64,000 nucleotides of DNA, taken from Aromatoleum aromaticum EbN1 (GTDB taxonomy: Bacteria > Pseudomonadota > Gammaproteobacteria > Burkholderiales > Rhodocyclaceae). The DNA lies in assembly GCF_000025965.1 (NCBI RefSeq), contig NC_006513.1:2790001-2854000 (forward strand), written 5' to 3'. The notes beneath the pieces are model-generated. The model had not been told where the DNA came from. It worked only from the letters and a program-made list of their open reading frames with translations, and searched no databases. Positions 7,788 to 22,095 of this stretch are shown here, in pieces. Positions within the stretch are counted from its first letter, which is position 1; the number at the start of each line of letters is the position of its first letter. The translations under genes and the position numbers were made by a program.

Positions 7788-8528
7788 ATGAATCAGAAAG
7801 TCGCACTCGTCACCGGCGCCATGGGTGGCCTGGGTACCGCTATCTGCCAGGCGCTGGCAAAGGACGGAATGAAGGTCGTGGCCAATTGTCTCCCCGGCTT
7901 TCCGCAGAAGGATGAGTGGCTGGGACGGCAGAAGGAGCTCGGCTTCGATTTCATCGCTGCCGAAGGCGACGTATCGGACTATGACTCCTGTCGCGCGATG
8001 GTGGCGAAGATCGAGGGCGAGGTGGGTGCGATCGATGTGCTGGTGAACAACGCCGGGATCACCCGCGACAAGTTCTTCCCGAAGATGGAAAAGGTGCAGT
8101 GGGATGCGGTCATCAACACCAACCTCAACAGCCTTTTCAACGTCACTCACCACGTTTCGCCGAAGATGGCAGAACGGGGCTATGGCCGAATCATCAATAT
8201 TTCTTCGGTGAACGGCGTCAAGGGCCAGGCCGGCCAGACCAACTACTCGACTGCCAAGGCGGGCGTGCTCGGCTTCACGAAAGCCCTTGCCGCGGAACTG
8301 GCGACGAAAGGCGTGACCGTCAATGCGATCGCGCCGGGCTATATCGGCACCGAGATGGTGATGGCGATTCGCGAAGACATTCGCCAGGGCATCATCGACA
8401 GCGTCCCGATGAAGCGCCTGGGCAAGCCGGAAGAAATCGGCGCTCTGTGCTCCTACCTGTCTTCCGATCTGGCCGGTTACGTGACCGGCGCGACGATCAA
8501 CATCAACGGCGGCCTCCACATGTGCTGA
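7788..8528 (+). CDS. phaB: Acetoacetyl-CoA reductase, copy 2
   Basis: A 246-residue short-chain dehydrogenase closely resembling the preceding gene in length and motifs: TGAMGGLGTA, NNAGITRDKFFPKM, serine 140, Tyr153/Lys157 (YSTAK), GYIGTEMVM and INGGLHMC. It is the expected NADPH-dependent acetoacetyl-CoA reductase. It has its own promoter and operator at 7634-7665 and its own terminator at 8559. It is therefore a separate, probably PhaR-controlled unit rather than part of the phaC operon. The start follows GCAAGAGGATTGCAA; GAGG is the likely ribosome site. Confidence 0.93.
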   Translation: MNQKVALVTGAMGGLGTAICQALAKDGMKVVANCLPGFPQKDEWLGRQKELGFDFIAAEGDVSDYDSCRAMVAKIEGEVGAIDVLVNNAGITRDKFFPKMEKVQWDAVINTNLNSLFNVTHHVSPKMAERGYGRIINISSVNGVKGQAGQTNYSTAKAGVLGFTKALAAELATKGVTVNAIAPGYIGTEMVMAIREDIRQGIIDSVPMKRLGKPEEIGALCSYLSSDLAGYVTGATININGGLHMC

Positions 8529-8558
8529 TGCAGCATCCGAAGCCTGTAGACGATTGTG

Positions 8559-8585
8559 AACCCCCGCCGAATGGCGGGGTTTTTC
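8559..8585 (+). terminator. Intrinsic terminator between phaB copy 2 and phaR
   Basis: A CCCCGCC/GGCGGGG stem (8562-8568 with 8573-8579), loop GAAT, is followed by five T. It ends the transcript of the second phaB. Confidence 0.8.
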
Positions 8586-8599
8586 TTTCGGCAGCGCGG

Positions 8600-13126: not shown

Positions 13127-13202
<76 letters not shown>

Positions 13203-13220
13203 ACCGAAGAAAGCGACGAT

Positions 13221-13296
13221 GTCCCCATCGTCTAGAGGCCTAGGACATCGCCCTTTCACGGCGGTAACCGGGGTTCGAATCCCCGTGGGGACGCCA
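13221..13296 (+). tRNA. tRNA-Glu (TTC), copy 1
   Basis: Acceptor GTCCCCA pairs with TGGGGAC, the anticodon loop is CTTTCAC (TTC) and the T-arm contains GGTTCGAATCC. Encoded CCA. It lies 18 bp after tRNA-Ala. Confidence 0.97.
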
Positions 13297-13362
13297 GAAC
13301 AAGGCGGGTCGCCGTGAGGCGGCGCGCAAACCGGCAGAAAACTGCCGGTAGCAGGTCAGCGC

Positions 13363-13439
13363 GGAGTGGTAGTTCAGTTGGTTAGAATACCGGCCTGTCA
13401 CGCCGGGGGTCGCGGGTTCGAGTCCCGTCCACTCCGCCA
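13363..13439 (+). tRNA. tRNA-Asp (GTC), copy 1
   Basis: A 77-nt cloverleaf. Acceptor GGAGTGG pairs with CCACTCC, the anticodon loop is CTGTCAC (GTC) and CCA is encoded. The 66-bp spacer before it contains a CCGGCAG/CTGCCGG hairpin that may guide processing. Confidence 0.97.
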
Positions 13440-13507
13440 GTTTTATGGCAGCAGTTTGGTGTGTTTTCGCTGGTGCATATCGAGTCGGATCGGCGAACAA
13501 GCTGTGC

Positions 13508-13536
13508 TTGCAGTGCGATCATTCAAGCGCTATAGT
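13508..13536 (+). promoter_or_regulatory. Promoter of the second tRNA trio
   Basis: TTGCAG (13508-13513), 17 bp, TATAGT (13531-13536), placed 15 bp before the second tRNA-Ala. The copied block therefore has its own promoter, unlike the first in sequence. Confidence 0.65.
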
Positions 13537-13551
13537 TCTCTGCTCTTTCGT

Positions 13552-13627
<76 letters not shown>

Positions 13628-13645
13628 ACCGAAGAAAGCGACGAT

Positions 13646-13721
13646 GTCCCCATCGTCTAGAGGCCTAGGACATCGCCCTTTCACGGCGGTAACCGGGGTT
13701 CGAATCCCCGTGGGGACGCCA
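13646..13721 (+). tRNA. tRNA-Glu (TTC), copy 2
   Basis: Identical to the tRNA at 13221. Confidence 0.97.
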
Positions 13722-13787
13722 GAACAAGGCGGGTCGCCGTGAGGCGGCGCGCAAACCGGCAGAAAACTGCCGGTAGCAGGTCAGCGC

Positions 13788-13864
13788 GGAGTGGTAGTTC
13801 AGTTGGTTAGAATACCGGCCTGTCACGCCGGGGGTCGCGGGTTCGAGTCCCGTCCACTCCGCCA
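13788..13864 (+). tRNA. tRNA-Asp (GTC), copy 2
   Basis: Identical to the tRNA at 13363; followed directly by the intrinsic terminator at 13869. Confidence 0.97.
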
Positions 13865-17987: not shown

Positions 17988-18163
17988 CGCAGCAGCTTCT
18001 CGTTGCGGCGGATGCGCGAGTCCGGTGACAGGGCGTGACGATCATTGCCGCGGCTCCGATGACAGACCGGATCCCGCCGCCGCGTCTCTGACGCCGGGCG
18101 GGTTCCGGATGGCTTGATCAGATCACGCTTGCCGGCAGCGGTTTCTGGCTGAAGGAGTCGATG

Positions 18164-19831
18164 ATGGAAAAGATCTGGCTGCAGAGCTATCCCCCGGGCG
18201 TTCCCGCAGAAATCGATCCCGACGAGTTCAGCTCCATCGGCGATCTGTTCAGCCGCAGCGTGCGGCAGTTTGGTGACCGGCCGGCCTACATCAACATGGG
18301 CAAGGGCATCAGCTATACCGAACTCGACCGCTTGTCCGTCCGGTTCGCAGGCTTCCTGCAAGGCGCGCTGAAGCTTCCGAGGGGCGCGCGCGTTGCGCTG
18401 ATGATGCCCAACATGCTGCAGTACCCGATCGCCATGTTCGGAGTGCTCCGGTCCGGCTACGTCGTTGTCAACGTCAATCCGCTGTATACCGCTCGTGAGC
18501 TGGAGCATCAGCTCCGCGACTCCGGCGCCGAGACGATCGTCATCGTCGAGAATTTCGCTAGCACGCTCGAACAGGTGCTGCCGAAGCTCACGATGCCTCA
18601 TATCGTCGTCACGAGCCTCGGCGAAATGCTCGGCTTTCCGAAAAGCCTGATCGTCAATCTGGTCGTCCGACAGGTCAAGAAGCTGGTGCCGTCATGGAAT
18701 CTCCCAGGTCATGTGAGTTTTTCGGCGGCATTGTCCAAGGGCGCCGCATTCCCGCTCGAGCCGGTGAGCGTCGGACACGACGACATCGCCTTTCTCCAAT
18801 ACACGGGTGGCACCACCGGCGTGGCGAAAGGGGCAGTGCTGACCCATCGCAACATCATCGCGAACCTGCAGCAGGCACACGCCTGGATCCGGCCCTTCGT
18901 GCATGAAGGCGAGGAAATCATCATCACGGCGCTTCCGCTCTATCATATTTTTTCCCTGACCGCGAACTGCCTGACATTCTTCAAGCTCGGCGCGACGAAC
19001 GTGCTGATCACCAATCCTCGCGACATTCCCGGCTTCATCAAGGAACTCGCCAAGTACAAATTCACCGCCATCACCGGGGTCAATACGCTGTTCAATGCGT
19101 TGCTGAACAACCCGGATTTTGCCAAGCTCGATTTCTCCCGGCTCCACATCGCGCTCGGCGGGGGAATGGCGGTGCAGCAGCAGGTGGCGGACCGCTGGCG
19201 ACGGATCACCGGACAGCCGCTCATCGAGGCCTACGGACTGACCGAAACCTCGCCCGCGGTGACGATAAACCCGCTCGATCTGCCCGCCTTCAATCATTCG
19301 ATCGGCCTGCCCGTTTCATCGACGGAAGTGAGCATTCGCGGCGACGACGGCAGCGAAATGCCGCTCGGGCAGCCCGGCGAACTGTGCGTGCGGGGGCCGC
19401 AGGTGATGCGCGAGTACTGGAATCGGCCGGAGGATACGGCCCACGTCTTTACGCCCGATGGTTTCCTGCGCACCGGTGACATCGCGACGATCGACGAAAA
19501 AGGCTTTGTGCGTATCGTCGATCGCAAGAAGGACATGATTCTGGTATCGGGTTTCAACGTCTTTCCGAACGAGATCGAGGACGTCGTCGCAAGCCACCCA
19601 AGCGTGCTGGAAGTCGCCGCAGTGGGCGTGCCGGACGAGCGCACCGGGGAAGCCGTCAAAGTGTTCATCGTGCGCAAAGATCCCTCGCTCACCCGCGAAA
19701 TGATCATTGCGCACTGTCGCAAAAGCCTGACTGCATACAAGATCCCTCACCTCGTGGAGTTTCGCGACGAATTACCGAAGACGAATGTCGGCAAGATCCT
19801 GCGGCGCCTGTTGCGGGACGGGAAGGCCTGA
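18164..19831 (+). CDS. fadD: Long-chain-fatty-acid--CoA ligase
   Basis: A 555-residue adenylate-forming enzyme. The AMP-binding loop [12 protein letters not shown] is followed by YGLTETSP, the hinge [25 protein letters not shown] and the catalytic-lysine segment [11 protein letters not shown]. The N-terminus [18 protein letters not shown] and the overall length match FadD closely. It activates fatty acids for beta-oxidation. The GAAGGAG ribosome site is six bases before ATG 18164 and three before ATG 18161, so the later start is preferred. It is a stand-alone gene here; no fadR-like box was noticed. Confidence 0.9.
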
Positions 19832-19854: not shown

Positions 19855-19884
19855 TTGTTTTTCTGTTCGATCCGTGGTTAGAAT
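19855..19884 (+). promoter_or_regulatory. Promoter of the ilvBN operon
   Basis: TTGTTT (19855-19860), 18-bp spacer, TAGAAT (19879-19884). Transcription would start near 19891, giving a leader of about 220 nt before ilvB that contains a peptide and a terminator. Confidence 0.55.
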
Positions 19885-19915
19885 CCGCAGCACCGATCCC
19901 GATATTTGTAGTGCC

Positions 19916-19993
19916 ATGACGCATCTGGTTCTCTCCCTCGCCGTAGTACTGCCGGTACGCGTAGTAGCAAGCGTAGGCAGGCGCGCGTCTTAA
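19916..19993 (+). CDS. Valine/leucine-rich leader peptide of ilvBN
   Basis: A 25-codon frame, too short for usual gene finding, between the promoter and the terminator that precede ilvB. It contains seven valines and four leucines (11 of 25) and no isoleucine. Six of seven valine codons are GTA, an uncommon codon in this GC-rich sequence; two tandem GTA GTA pairs are at codons 10-11 and 16-17. This is the design of amino-acid-starvation attenuators such as E. coli ivbL, which also senses valine and leucine and controls the same enzyme. It ends in TAA 31 bp before the terminator. No strong ribosome site is visible. Confidence 0.8.
   Translation: MTHLVLSLAVVLPVRVVASVGRRAS
19949..19980 (+). promoter_or_regulatory. 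Probable pause (1:2) hairpin of the ilvBN leader
   Basis: CTGCC+TACGC (19949-19953, 19956-19960) can pair with GCGTA+GGCAG (19971-19980). This gives ten base pairs with a two-base bulge and a 10-nt loop holding the second GTA GTA pair. The hairpin overlaps the regulatory codons as expected for ribosome-position sensing. Confidence 0.55.
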
Positions 19994-20024
19994 GGGCAAG
20001 GGACAACCAGGTAGCATCGATTCC

Positions 20025-20065
20025 AACCCCCGCCGGCGCGCAGGCCCGGCGGGGGTTTGTTTTTT
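20025..20065 (+). terminator. Attenuator terminator before ilvB
   Basis: A 12-bp GC-rich stem (20025-20036 with 20046-20057), 9-nt loop and a T-rich tract (TTTGTTTTTT). It lies between the leader peptide and the ilvB ribosome site, with no other gene between. It therefore acts on the ilvBN transcript itself. It could also catch read-through from fadD. Confidence 0.88.
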
Positions 20066-20111
20066 GCGCCGCCGGTTCCTGCCGCCCGGATATGAACCGA
20101 AGGAGATCATG

Positions 20112-21779
20112 ATGATTCAGATGACCGGCGCCGAACTGATCCTGCGCTTGCTTGAACGGCAGGGCATACGCACCGTTGCCGGTATTCCCGGCGGCGCTAT
20201 CCTGCCGCTCTACGATGCGCTGTCGGGTAGCAAGCTGATTCGCCACGTGCTCGCCCGTCATGAACAGGGAGCCGGGTTCATCGCCCAGGGGATGGCCAGG
20301 GTGTCGGGCCGCCCGGAGGTGTGCTTTGCCTCGAGCGGCCCCGGTGCGACGAACCTGGTTACGGCGATCGCCGACGCGCATCTGGATTCGATTCCCATGG
20401 TGGCGATCACCGGGCAGGTGCCGCTTTCGATGATCGGCACCGACGCCTTCCAGGAAGCCGACATCTACGGCATGACGGTGCCGGTCACGAAGCATAATTT
20501 CCTCGTGCGCTCGGCAGCCGAATTGCTGGAGGTGATTCCCGACGCGTTTCGCCTCGCGATGTCCGGGCGTCCCGGCCCGGTGCTGATCGACATCCCGAAG
20601 GATGTGCAGACCCAGGTCGTGAGCTTCGATGCGTTTCCGCTGCCGGCCATCCCGAATGCCGCGCCCGCAAGCGATCCGGACGCGATCGAGGAGGCGGCAC
20701 GACTCATCAATGCTGCGGAACGCCCGGTGTTGTATGTCGGCGGCGGCGTGATTCATTCCGGCGCAGCGCAGCAAATCGTCATGCTCGCCGAGCGTGCCGG
20801 CTTGCCGACCACGATGACGTTGATGGCGCTGGGCGTGATGCCGATCGACCACCCGCTTTCGCTCGGCATGCTGGGGATGCATGGCGCGCGCTACACGAAT
20901 TTCATCCTCGAAGAATCGGACCTGCTGATCTGCGTCGGTGCGCGCTTCGACGACCGGGCGATCGGCAAGGCGGCGCAATTCTGCCCGCGGGCGAAGATCG
21001 TGCATATCGACATCGATCCGTCCGAACTGCACAAGATCAGGAACGCGCATGTCGCGATCAATGGGGATGTCGGCGTGGTTCTCGACGCGCTGTTGCCGCG
21101 GGTGAACATCAGGCTGCGCAAGCGCTGGCTGTCACATGTCGGCAGCCTCAAAAGCCGTTTTCCGCTGCACATGCCGAGGCTGGAGGATCCGCGCAGCCCC
21201 TATGGTCTCGTTCAGGCGGTCGCCTGTGCGGTGAGTGATGAGGCAGTGGTCACCACCGACGTCGGGCAGCACCAGATGTGGGTTGCCCAGGCTTATCCGT
21301 TTCGCCGGCCCCGTCAGTGGCTGACCTCCGGCGGGTTCGGGACGATGGGATTCGGCTTGCCGGTGGCGGTCGGCGCAGCGCTGGCAGCTCCCGCGCGAAC
21401 GGTCATCTGCTTCACCGGTGATGGCAGCTTCAAGATGAACATCCAGGAACTCGCGACGCTCGCCGAAGAAGGGCTCAACGTGAAGATCGTGCTGATGAAC
21501 AACAACTCGCTCGGGCTGGTGTATCAGCAGCAGAGCCTGTTCTACGGTAAACGGGTGTTCGCGTCGAAGTACCAGGGCGCACCGGATTTTCTGAAAATTG
21601 CCGAGGGCTTCGGCATCGACGGCGTCGATCTCGATACGGTCCGGAACCCCCGCGCGGCGCTTGCCCAGGCGCTGAACGCCCCGGGGCCGTGCCTGATCCA
21701 CGCATCGATCGACTGCGAGGAATTCGTCTATCCGATGGTGCCTCCAGGCGGTGCGAACACCGAAATGATCGGAGGCTGA
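20112..21779 (+). CDS. ilvB: Acetolactate synthase, large subunit
   Basis: A 555-residue ThDP enzyme that condenses two pyruvates (or pyruvate and 2-ketobutyrate) in branched-chain amino-acid synthesis. The catalytic glutamate is residue 51 (RHEQGAGF). Motifs FASSGPGATNLVT, TDVGQHQMWVAQ and the ThDP-binding GDGSFKMNIQELATLAEEGLNVKIVLMNN (cut here as separate family blocks) are intact. It is followed two bases later by a short ACT subunit, so this is an IlvBN (AHAS I-like) arrangement. GAAGGAG precedes two tandem ATGs; 20112 has the better spacing, 20109 is possible. Confidence 0.93.
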   Translation: MIQMTGAELILRLLERQGIRTVAGIPGGAILPLYDALSGSKLIRHVLARHEQGAGFIAQGMARVSGRPEVCFASSGPGATNLVTAIADAHLDSIPMVAITGQVPLSMIGTDAFQEADIYGMTVPVTKHNFLVRSAAELLEVIPDAFRLAMSGRPGPVLIDIPKDVQTQVVSFDAFPLPAIPNAAPASDPDAIEEAARLINAAERPVLYVGGGVIHSGAAQQIVMLAERAGLPTTMTLMALGVMPIDHPLSLGMLGMHGARYTNFILEESDLLICVGARFDDRAIGKAAQFCPRAKIVHIDIDPSELHKIRNAHVAINGDVGVVLDALLPRVNIRLRKRWLSHVGSLKSRFPLHMPRLEDPRSPYGLVQAVACAVSDEAVVTTDVGQHQMWVAQAYPFRRPRQWLTSGGFGTMGFGLPVAVGAALAAPARTVICFTGDGSFKMNIQELATLAEEGLNVKIVLMNNNSLGLVYQQQSLFYGKRVFASKYQGAPDFLKIAEGFGIDGVDLDTVRNPRAALAQALNAPGPCLIHASIDCEEFVYPMVPPGGANTEMIGG

Positions 21780-21780
21780 C

Positions 21781-22095
21781 ATGATCGAACAAGTTGCCGA
21801 ACCCTTGCAGCAATCCGGCTTCGCCAAAGTCGTGCTGGAACTCGAAGTCAACAATCACCCCGGCGTGATGAGTCACATCTGCAATCTGTTCGCCCGTCGT
21901 GCGTTCAACGTCGAAGGCATCTTGTGCATGCCGCTGTCCGATCCGCGCCGCAGCCGCATCTGGCTGCTGGTGTTCGAGGACCAGCGGCTGGAGCAGATGG
22001 TGCTGCAGGTGGAGAAGCTCGTCGACGTATTGTCGGTGCGCCGGCACGGGGCGGAGCATGAAGTATTCGAACGGCTGGAGAAATTTTTCTACTGA
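21781..22095 (+). CDS. ilvN: Acetolactate synthase, small regulatory subunit
   Basis: A 104-residue single ACT-domain protein (about 14-85: LELEVNNHPGVMSHICNLFARRAFNVEGI). The length is that of E. coli IlvN and much shorter than IlvH, which has a second domain. It should confer valine feedback inhibition on the large subunit. The start is one base after the ilvB stop, so translation is coupled. Confidence 0.92.
   Translation: MIEQVAEPLQQSGFAKVVLELEVNNHPGVMSHICNLFARRAFNVEGILCMPLSDPRRSRIWLLVFEDQRLEQMVLQVEKLVDVLSVRRHGAEHEVFERLEKFFY

Follow-up and report, generated by a model that had tools for sequence, protein, structure and literature searches.

A valine-rich leader with a predicted transcription attenuator upstream of the acetohydroxyacid synthase I operon of Aromatoleum aromaticum EbN1 appears related to Escherichia coli ivbL

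In E. coli, the ilvL-ilvGMEDA and leuL systems are governed by ribosome-mediated attenuation that depends on codons for branched-chain amino acids. An attenuator of ivbL-ilvBN in the same organism was reportedly described by Friden et al. in 1982, and the study of Vitreschak et al. (2004), which is said to have covered gamma- and alphaproteobacteria, would be the likeliest place for a betaproteobacterial ilvBN leader to have been reported. The latter study is cited in two papers of the searched literature (PMC6123439 and PMC1183508), the first of which also cites Friden et al., and a third paper states that ivbL responds to L-valine and L-leucine (PMC11187965). A literature search by title or start of abstract, the partial coverage of which left most subscription journals outside, returned no paper on a betaproteobacterial ilvBN leader, and the available part of PMC2965389 made no mention of ilv or Azoarcus. 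Here, such a leader is analyzed in a 64,000-nucleotide stretch of the A. aromaticum EbN1 genome (the window), for which a preliminary description had proposed an ivbL-type Val/Leu attenuator before ilvBN; this proposal is strongly supported by the conserved leader, terminator, and putative antiterminator presented below.

Two plus-strand genes follow the leader: ilvB (20112 to 21779, with an alternative ATG at 20109 and AAGGAG at 20100-20105), encoding the large subunit of acetohydroxyacid synthase I (AHAS I), and ilvN (21781 to 22095), encoding the acetolactate synthase small subunit. Both products scored above the cut-offs of NCBIfam models, with 1039.6 bits for the ilvB product on PRK08155 (cut-off 870) and 164.7 bits for the ilvN product on PRK08178 (cut-off 128), and the best PDB match of the ilvB product was 6lpi, acetolactate synthase isozyme 1, at 791.9 bits (next match, 502.3). 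We take PRK08155 and PRK08178 to be the E. coli AHAS I families from general knowledge and from the name of 6lpi. Judged by sequence, the enzyme encoded is AHAS I, a relative of E. coli IlvBN. A second AHAS large subunit encoded in the same genome (G000:C1:4208932-4210617, L002) was 44% identical, and no branched-chain-rich ORF was seen within 500 nt upstream of it. The distribution of AHAS I was patchy: it was detected in 101 of the 199 genomes of the family sample (E <= 1e-150) and, at E <= 1e-170, in 12 of 369, 9 of 399, and 10 of 398 genomes of the class, order, and phylum samples, respectively, counts that each include the A. aromaticum genome itself. Among the best 80 matches, the IlvB orthologs of named Enterobacteriaceae were 64-67% identical; other gammaproteobacterial relatives were 48-67% identical. 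Elsewhere in the window, a tRNA cluster of Ala(ggc), Glu(ttc), and Asp(gtc) was found to be tandemly duplicated at 13127-13864, with the copies 425 bp apart.

The leader peptide ORF, read from the sequence, occupies 19916 to 19993 of the plus strand, with 25 codons from the ATG at 19916 to the TAA stop at 19991-19993, and encodes MTHLVLSLAVVLPVRVVASVGRRAS. When recomputed, its length and composition (seven Val, four Leu, and no Ile residues) agreed with those first given. No clear Shine-Dalgarno sequence was apparent by eye before the ATG. Six of the seven Val codons are GTA and the other is GTT. The rarity of GTA in the surrounding DNA, on which the preliminary description had remarked, was borne out in six coding stretches nearby, where 6 of the 177 Val codons are GTA; chance would hardly produce its share in the leader (binomial probability of about 1e-8). 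When the intergenic stretch was shuffled with dinucleotide composition preserved, an ORF as Val-rich was obtained in 4 of 2000 shuffles and one as rich in Val plus Leu in 1 of 2000. GTA accounted for 73% of the Val codons in the leaders of 47 close loci (n = 369), whereas the 17 enteric leaders (n = 164) used GTA for 1%, GTC for 47%, and GTG for 48%. Because the GTA blocks also form part of the hairpin termed segment 1 (see below), codon choice and RNA pairing cannot be told apart in these data.

A Val/Leu-rich leader was found to be conserved in relatives. A Val-rich short ORF was present upstream of AHAS I in 98 of the 100 family loci examined, the latter being the 102 matches of the family search less G170 (match from residue 49) and G191 (partial, at a contig start). 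The leader was not detected at the two remaining family loci, L179 and L180; genome G141, to which L180 belongs as a second copy, does have a leader at its other copy, L171. By the same criterion, the leader was present in 17 of 17 enteric loci, consisting of eight named loci (L038-L045) and nine of another family that fall among them in the tree (L203-L211). All 11 of the other gammaproteobacterial loci passed the threshold, and 10 were accepted, since the passing ORF of L194 is not the plausible leader. The Val-rich leader was also detected at L197 (another family of the order), at L035-L037 (named or MAG), and at the MAG locus L047; the leader at L036, from Azospira, is identical to that of the family locus L136. 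It was missing at the MAG locus L048 and at Fusibacter L046; AHAS I genes that are devoid of a detectable Val leader therefore exist (L179, L180, and L048). As a control, the DNA preceding ilvB/ilvI genes of more distant relationship was analyzed (64 of the 66 loci L049-L114, L061 and L067 having been dropped for too little upstream DNA), of which 13 passed the same criterion and nine its Val part. Some of these passing controls, for example enteric L059 and L103, are presumably real ilvL-type leaders. The motif (V)VRVVxVG..A(P/S), which takes the form VRVVASVG in the window, was common to many of the leader peptides and to the E. coli peptide ending in ...VVVVRVVVVVGNAP, while several leaders were without it. 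In addition, one leader of the same family (MNALLMPLALVLSVSLLIVVGARERAS, L025) was found to have more Leu and one Ile, which might mean that it has come to sense a different amino acid.

Family models gave no account of this leader. In an Rfam search of the window leader, performed at threshold and with E up to 10, nothing reached threshold: Leu_leader (RF00512) scored 12.9 bits in the window (threshold 50), and the T-box model (RF00230, gathering score 93) had no hit in the window. Likewise, the window peptide was matched by neither Pfam PF08049 (IlvB_leader) nor NCBIfam NF007579 (IvbL), on which the E. coli leader peptide scored 72.6 and 78.7 bits, respectively. In the Firmicute Fusibacter paucivorans (L046), a 53% identical ilvB with no Val leader lies behind a T-box (2685-2909 of that locus, 136.7 bits). 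This arrangement lends some appeal to the idea that a metabolite riboswitch or T-box, instead of a translated leader, controls the operon in the window; however, with the Rfam result on the window leader and the conservation of the Val-rich frame both standing against it, we consider this idea scarcely credible.

The Val codons are spanned by the segment 1 hairpin (19949 to 19980, plus strand), in which 19949-19953 and 19956-19960 are paired with 19971-19980. Computed folding returned 10 bp with a 2-nt bulge at −12.7 kcal/mol, in agreement with the 10-bp hairpin originally noted. Its comparison in relatives took in the inner 5 bp (TACGC:GCGTA), which were paired in 97.9% of the 235 cells from the 47 loci but varied so little that they give no evidence of covariation. 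Past the leader lies a predicted intrinsic terminator with a T-rich tail (20025 to 20065, plus strand; arms 20025-20036 and 20046-20057, tail 20056-20065). The claim of a strong terminator 31 bp past the leader stop was confirmed by computed folding, which placed a GC-rich stem of 12 bp and −30.3 kcal/mol at 20025-20057, beginning 31 nt past the stop. This stem was paired in 99.6% of 564 cells in the 47 loci, and three of its pairs displayed double changes, a number that was reached by 3 of 500 shuffles. Sequence and folding together place a rho-independent terminator between the leader and ilvB, as in an attenuator of the ivbL kind.

An unproven candidate promoter was read from the sequence at 19855 to 19884 (plus strand), with TTGTTT (19855-19860) and TAGAAT (19879-19884) separated by 18 nt. 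The preliminary description had spoken of a promoter before the leader without reserve, and this wording was too strong: a consensus promoter scan upstream of the leader found 0 sites, and the TTGTTT/TAGAAT pair is weakly sigma70-like. By eye, CTTG...TTT blocks resembling the candidate were seen upstream in several of 14 relatives viewed. The outcome of the scan would suit a different explanation, in which the terminator merely ends the transcript of an upstream gene, ilvB has its own promoter further downstream, and the Val-rich frame is accidental; indeed, the leader begins 84 bp past a same-strand gene for a long-chain acyl-CoA ligase (18161-19831). Yet the scan found no promoter in the 46 nt from the T-rich tail to ilvB either, and an accidental frame is hard to reconcile with its recurrence throughout the family and enteric loci or with the GTA bias, such that this explanation is very unlikely.

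The putative antiterminator is formed by two further segments. Segment 2 (19981 to 19996, plus strand), its 5′ side, overlaps the leader stop, and segment 3 (20025 to 20041, plus strand) consists of the terminator 5′ arm and the start of the loop. In the register common to relatives, the computed pairing joins GCGCGTC at 19983-19989 to GGCGCGC at 20035-20041 and GGG at 19994-19996 to CCC at 20029-20031. The duplex recurred with the layout (GCGCGUCG / GCGCCG / GCACCG / CGCCG), stop region, and (GC)GGG against CCC(GC)CGGYGC(GC). Duplexes were searched between the leader end and the terminator 5′ arm plus loop, with the best pairing chosen, a procedure that leans towards pairing. The analysis included 129 loci (117 distinct); L036, L046, L048, L049, L179, L180, L194, L196, L198, L199, L201, and L202 were omitted (for want of a clear leader, as distant genes, or as copies of loci already included), and L192, which has no terminator by the rule used, stayed outside. 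The mean duplex energy of the 117 distinct loci was −22.8 kcal/mol, compared with −17.3 kcal/mol for shuffled arms and −21.0 kcal/mol (sd 0.18) for terminator arms permuted among loci, where 0 of 10,000 permutations were as low as the native set in a test that retains the relatedness of the loci. When ranked in the swap test, the native arm was not the best partner at most single loci, as one arm can stand in for another almost equally well, and the summed energy alone stood out.

Compensatory switches of base pairs between lineages were counted in 116 loci, L187 being without the CGG anchor; the counts are taken from the best duplexes, and related loci are not independent. The first position was G-C in 92 loci, A-U in 14, G-U in 5, and unpaired in 5; the second was C-G in 81, A-U in 11, and unpaired in 20; and the third was G-C in 46, A-U in 7, and unpaired in 61. 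At L131-L134 and L160-L161, the stem was rebuilt as CCGGAGGG:CCCUCCGG. The antiterminator core hardly varied among the 47 close loci (82.2% of cells paired). Its covariation score was matched or exceeded in 14 of 500 shuffles and its number of double-change pairs in 316 of 500, and certain pairs were open in 14 to 25 loci. The comparison of the leader frame and stems in relatives, which had been proposed as a check, was run with a divided outcome: the frame with its Val richness and the terminator with its double-change pairs were conserved, the segment 1 hairpin was nearly invariant, and the antiterminator covaried weakly in the 47 loci and displayed compensatory changes in the wider set.

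The preliminary description had paired 19976-19986 with 20036-20046, a register to which segment 2 contributes 19981-19986. The nine pairs of this register around a tandem A-G mismatch are indeed present in the window; over the 47 loci, 85.1% of 390 cells were paired and 33 further cells were gapped, with no excess covariation, and this register may serve as an alternative pairing in the window. It had also been named as a weak point that the antiterminator meets no more than the edge of the terminator stem. Relatives instead displayed a longer register running down the 5′ arm, though with weak covariation in the 47 close loci, and this pairing along the terminator 5′ arm and loop appears largely to resolve the edge overlap. 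The duplex ended before the leader stop in 43 of the 117 loci, by one nucleotide in 7 and by at least ten in 20, including L204, where it is an alternative pairing. At L037, L144, L151, L154, L169, and others, the leader stop was well past the antiterminator segment and the pairing was kept. At loci with a large gap between the pairing segment and the stop, a ribosome that has reached the stop may cover the segment incompletely, and a modified switch would then be needed.

The pairing data also bear on whether an RVVxVG nascent peptide arrests the ribosome, with the peptide and not the codons acting as the sensor. RVVxVG recurs from the enteric leaders to the family of the window, as such a mechanism would lead one to expect; however, (i) the motif is encoded by the same nucleotides that make up the TACGC/GCGTA hairpin as well as segment 2, and its conservation can thus be explained by RNA pairing; (ii) the motif arginine is missing in several Val-rich leaders (e.g., L156, L166, and L186); and (iii) at loci with a later stop, the pairing nucleotides persist though the frame reads through them. 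We therefore regard a peptide sensor as highly improbable.

Overall, the AHAS I operon is very probably controlled by ribosome-mediated transcription attenuation that senses charged tRNA-Val. When valyl-tRNA is plentiful (mainly the species reading GTA), the ribosome would reach the stop at 19991-19993 and cover segment 2 (about 19981-19996), with the result that the terminator at 20025-20057 would form and transcription would halt before ilvB. Under a shortage of valyl-tRNA, the ribosome would stall on the GTA codons 10, 11, 14, 16, and 17, which would free segment 2 to pair with segment 3 (20029-20041) before the terminator 3′ arm is made, and transcription would run on into ilvBN. In the case of no translating ribosome, the leader would fold on itself and the terminator would form. 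What the sequences show is a conserved leader and terminator, a potential antiterminator pairing with compensatory changes, and a codon bias; how the switch answers to valine or leucine, what the ribosome covers, and how the steps are timed are inferred parts of this scheme. Folding was computed by ribosome position, with the RNA masked to 13 nt past the first base of the A-site codon as the assumed footprint. With the 3′ arm not yet made, one or the other antiterminator register was predicted to dominate for a ribosome at codon 10, 14, or 16/17. Neither register was predicted for a ribosome at the stop or at the last Val codon (20), and stalling at the latter is not expected to release segment 2. 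In the window, the register from the preliminary description dominated for an early stall, with a probability of 0.91 at codon 10, 0.66 at codon 14, and 0.32 at codon 16/17. In the fold computed for RNA free of ribosomes, the segment 1 hairpin had a probability of 0.95 and the terminator formed. Once the 3′ arm was present, the terminator won at every ribosome position tried; hence, the switch must be kinetic.

The relationship to E. coli ivbL was examined with a covariance model, R1, built from 47 loci (the window, 45 family loci, and one MAG) and no enterics; it was run on 45 chosen loci and the window. R1 matched the E. coli ivbL locus L043 at 57.3 bits (E of about 2e-14), by which the RNA is similar to the ivbL leader. 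All 17 enteric loci supplied were matched (E 1.8e-15 to 1e-8), as were 9 of the 11 other gammaproteobacterial loci at E <= 7.7e-6, with E values of 0.003 for L192 and 0.03 for L194. Background was at most 24.4 bits for wrong-strand hits (generic terminator) and 22-23 bits for L082 and L084. The enteric paralog loci L059, L085, and L103, presumably ilvG loci, gave E values of 0.02-0.1. A weak R1 match was also found at 8447-8589 of the window (15.3 bits, E 0.007), which is probably due to chance. The earlier view that the sequence is unrelated to E. coli ivbL, and the control convergent, is not supported, given the common AHAS I family, the peptide motif shared by many leaders, and the R1 match; its alternative of "very old control" fits. 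From these sequence comparisons, the attenuator of the window and E. coli ivbL appear homologous, and convergence is not supported. The enteric enzymes adjoined the group of the window in the IlvB trees (SH-aLRT 97 in a quick tree; 92/65 in a second, careful tree from which 16 of 80 rows were dropped as long, partial, or outgroup). Horizontal transfer from betaproteobacteria to enterics was considered on this basis; however, one betaproteobacterial clade was not rejected by the AU test (p 0.162), which does not fix the direction, and a shared origin is therefore claimed and not a direction of transfer. A broader reading, which we hold tentatively and with slightly more doubt than belief, is that the attenuator of AHAS I is a single, ancient RNA module that has accompanied ilvBN as the operon spread patchily, and perhaps horizontally, across beta- and gammaproteobacteria. 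Under this reading, the leader stop codon is part of the antiterminator, so that the C-terminal A(P/S) motif would be held in place by RNA pairing and not by what the peptide does.

These findings carry an attenuator known from E. coli textbooks into a betaproteobacterial family; in the window, it was not recognized by the Pfam, NCBIfam, and Rfam searches performed. The more than 100 natural variants gathered here are of help in delimiting the antiterminator, and the GTA-rich and GTC/GTG leaders on the same switch provide a natural contrast for whether codon choice sets attenuation sensitivity. Among the described systems, ilvL-ilvGMEDA and leuL share ribosome-mediated attenuation by branched-chain codons but precede other operons, and the leader of the window differs from the former by the R1 E values of 0.02-0.1 on probable ilvG loci and from the latter by the 12.9 bits on Rfam Leu_leader. 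The ilvBNC uORF and ilvB-II motif of Corynebacterium (PMC10272879) also place a leader ORF before ilvB, but in another lineage and another operon. Compared with E. coli ivbL, the window has a leader of 25 codons instead of 32, a terminator with a longer GC stem, and a peptide that falls outside the Pfam and NCBIfam leader-peptide models, and its Val codons are mostly GTA, unlike those of enteric ivbL leaders. Nonetheless, the two systems have in common (i) the AHAS I family and a Val/Leu leader peptide; (ii) VRVVxVG near the C-terminus, as in many relatives; (iii) a terminator with a CCGGCGC stretch; and (iv) a leader end and post-stop GGG able to pair with the terminator 5′ arm.
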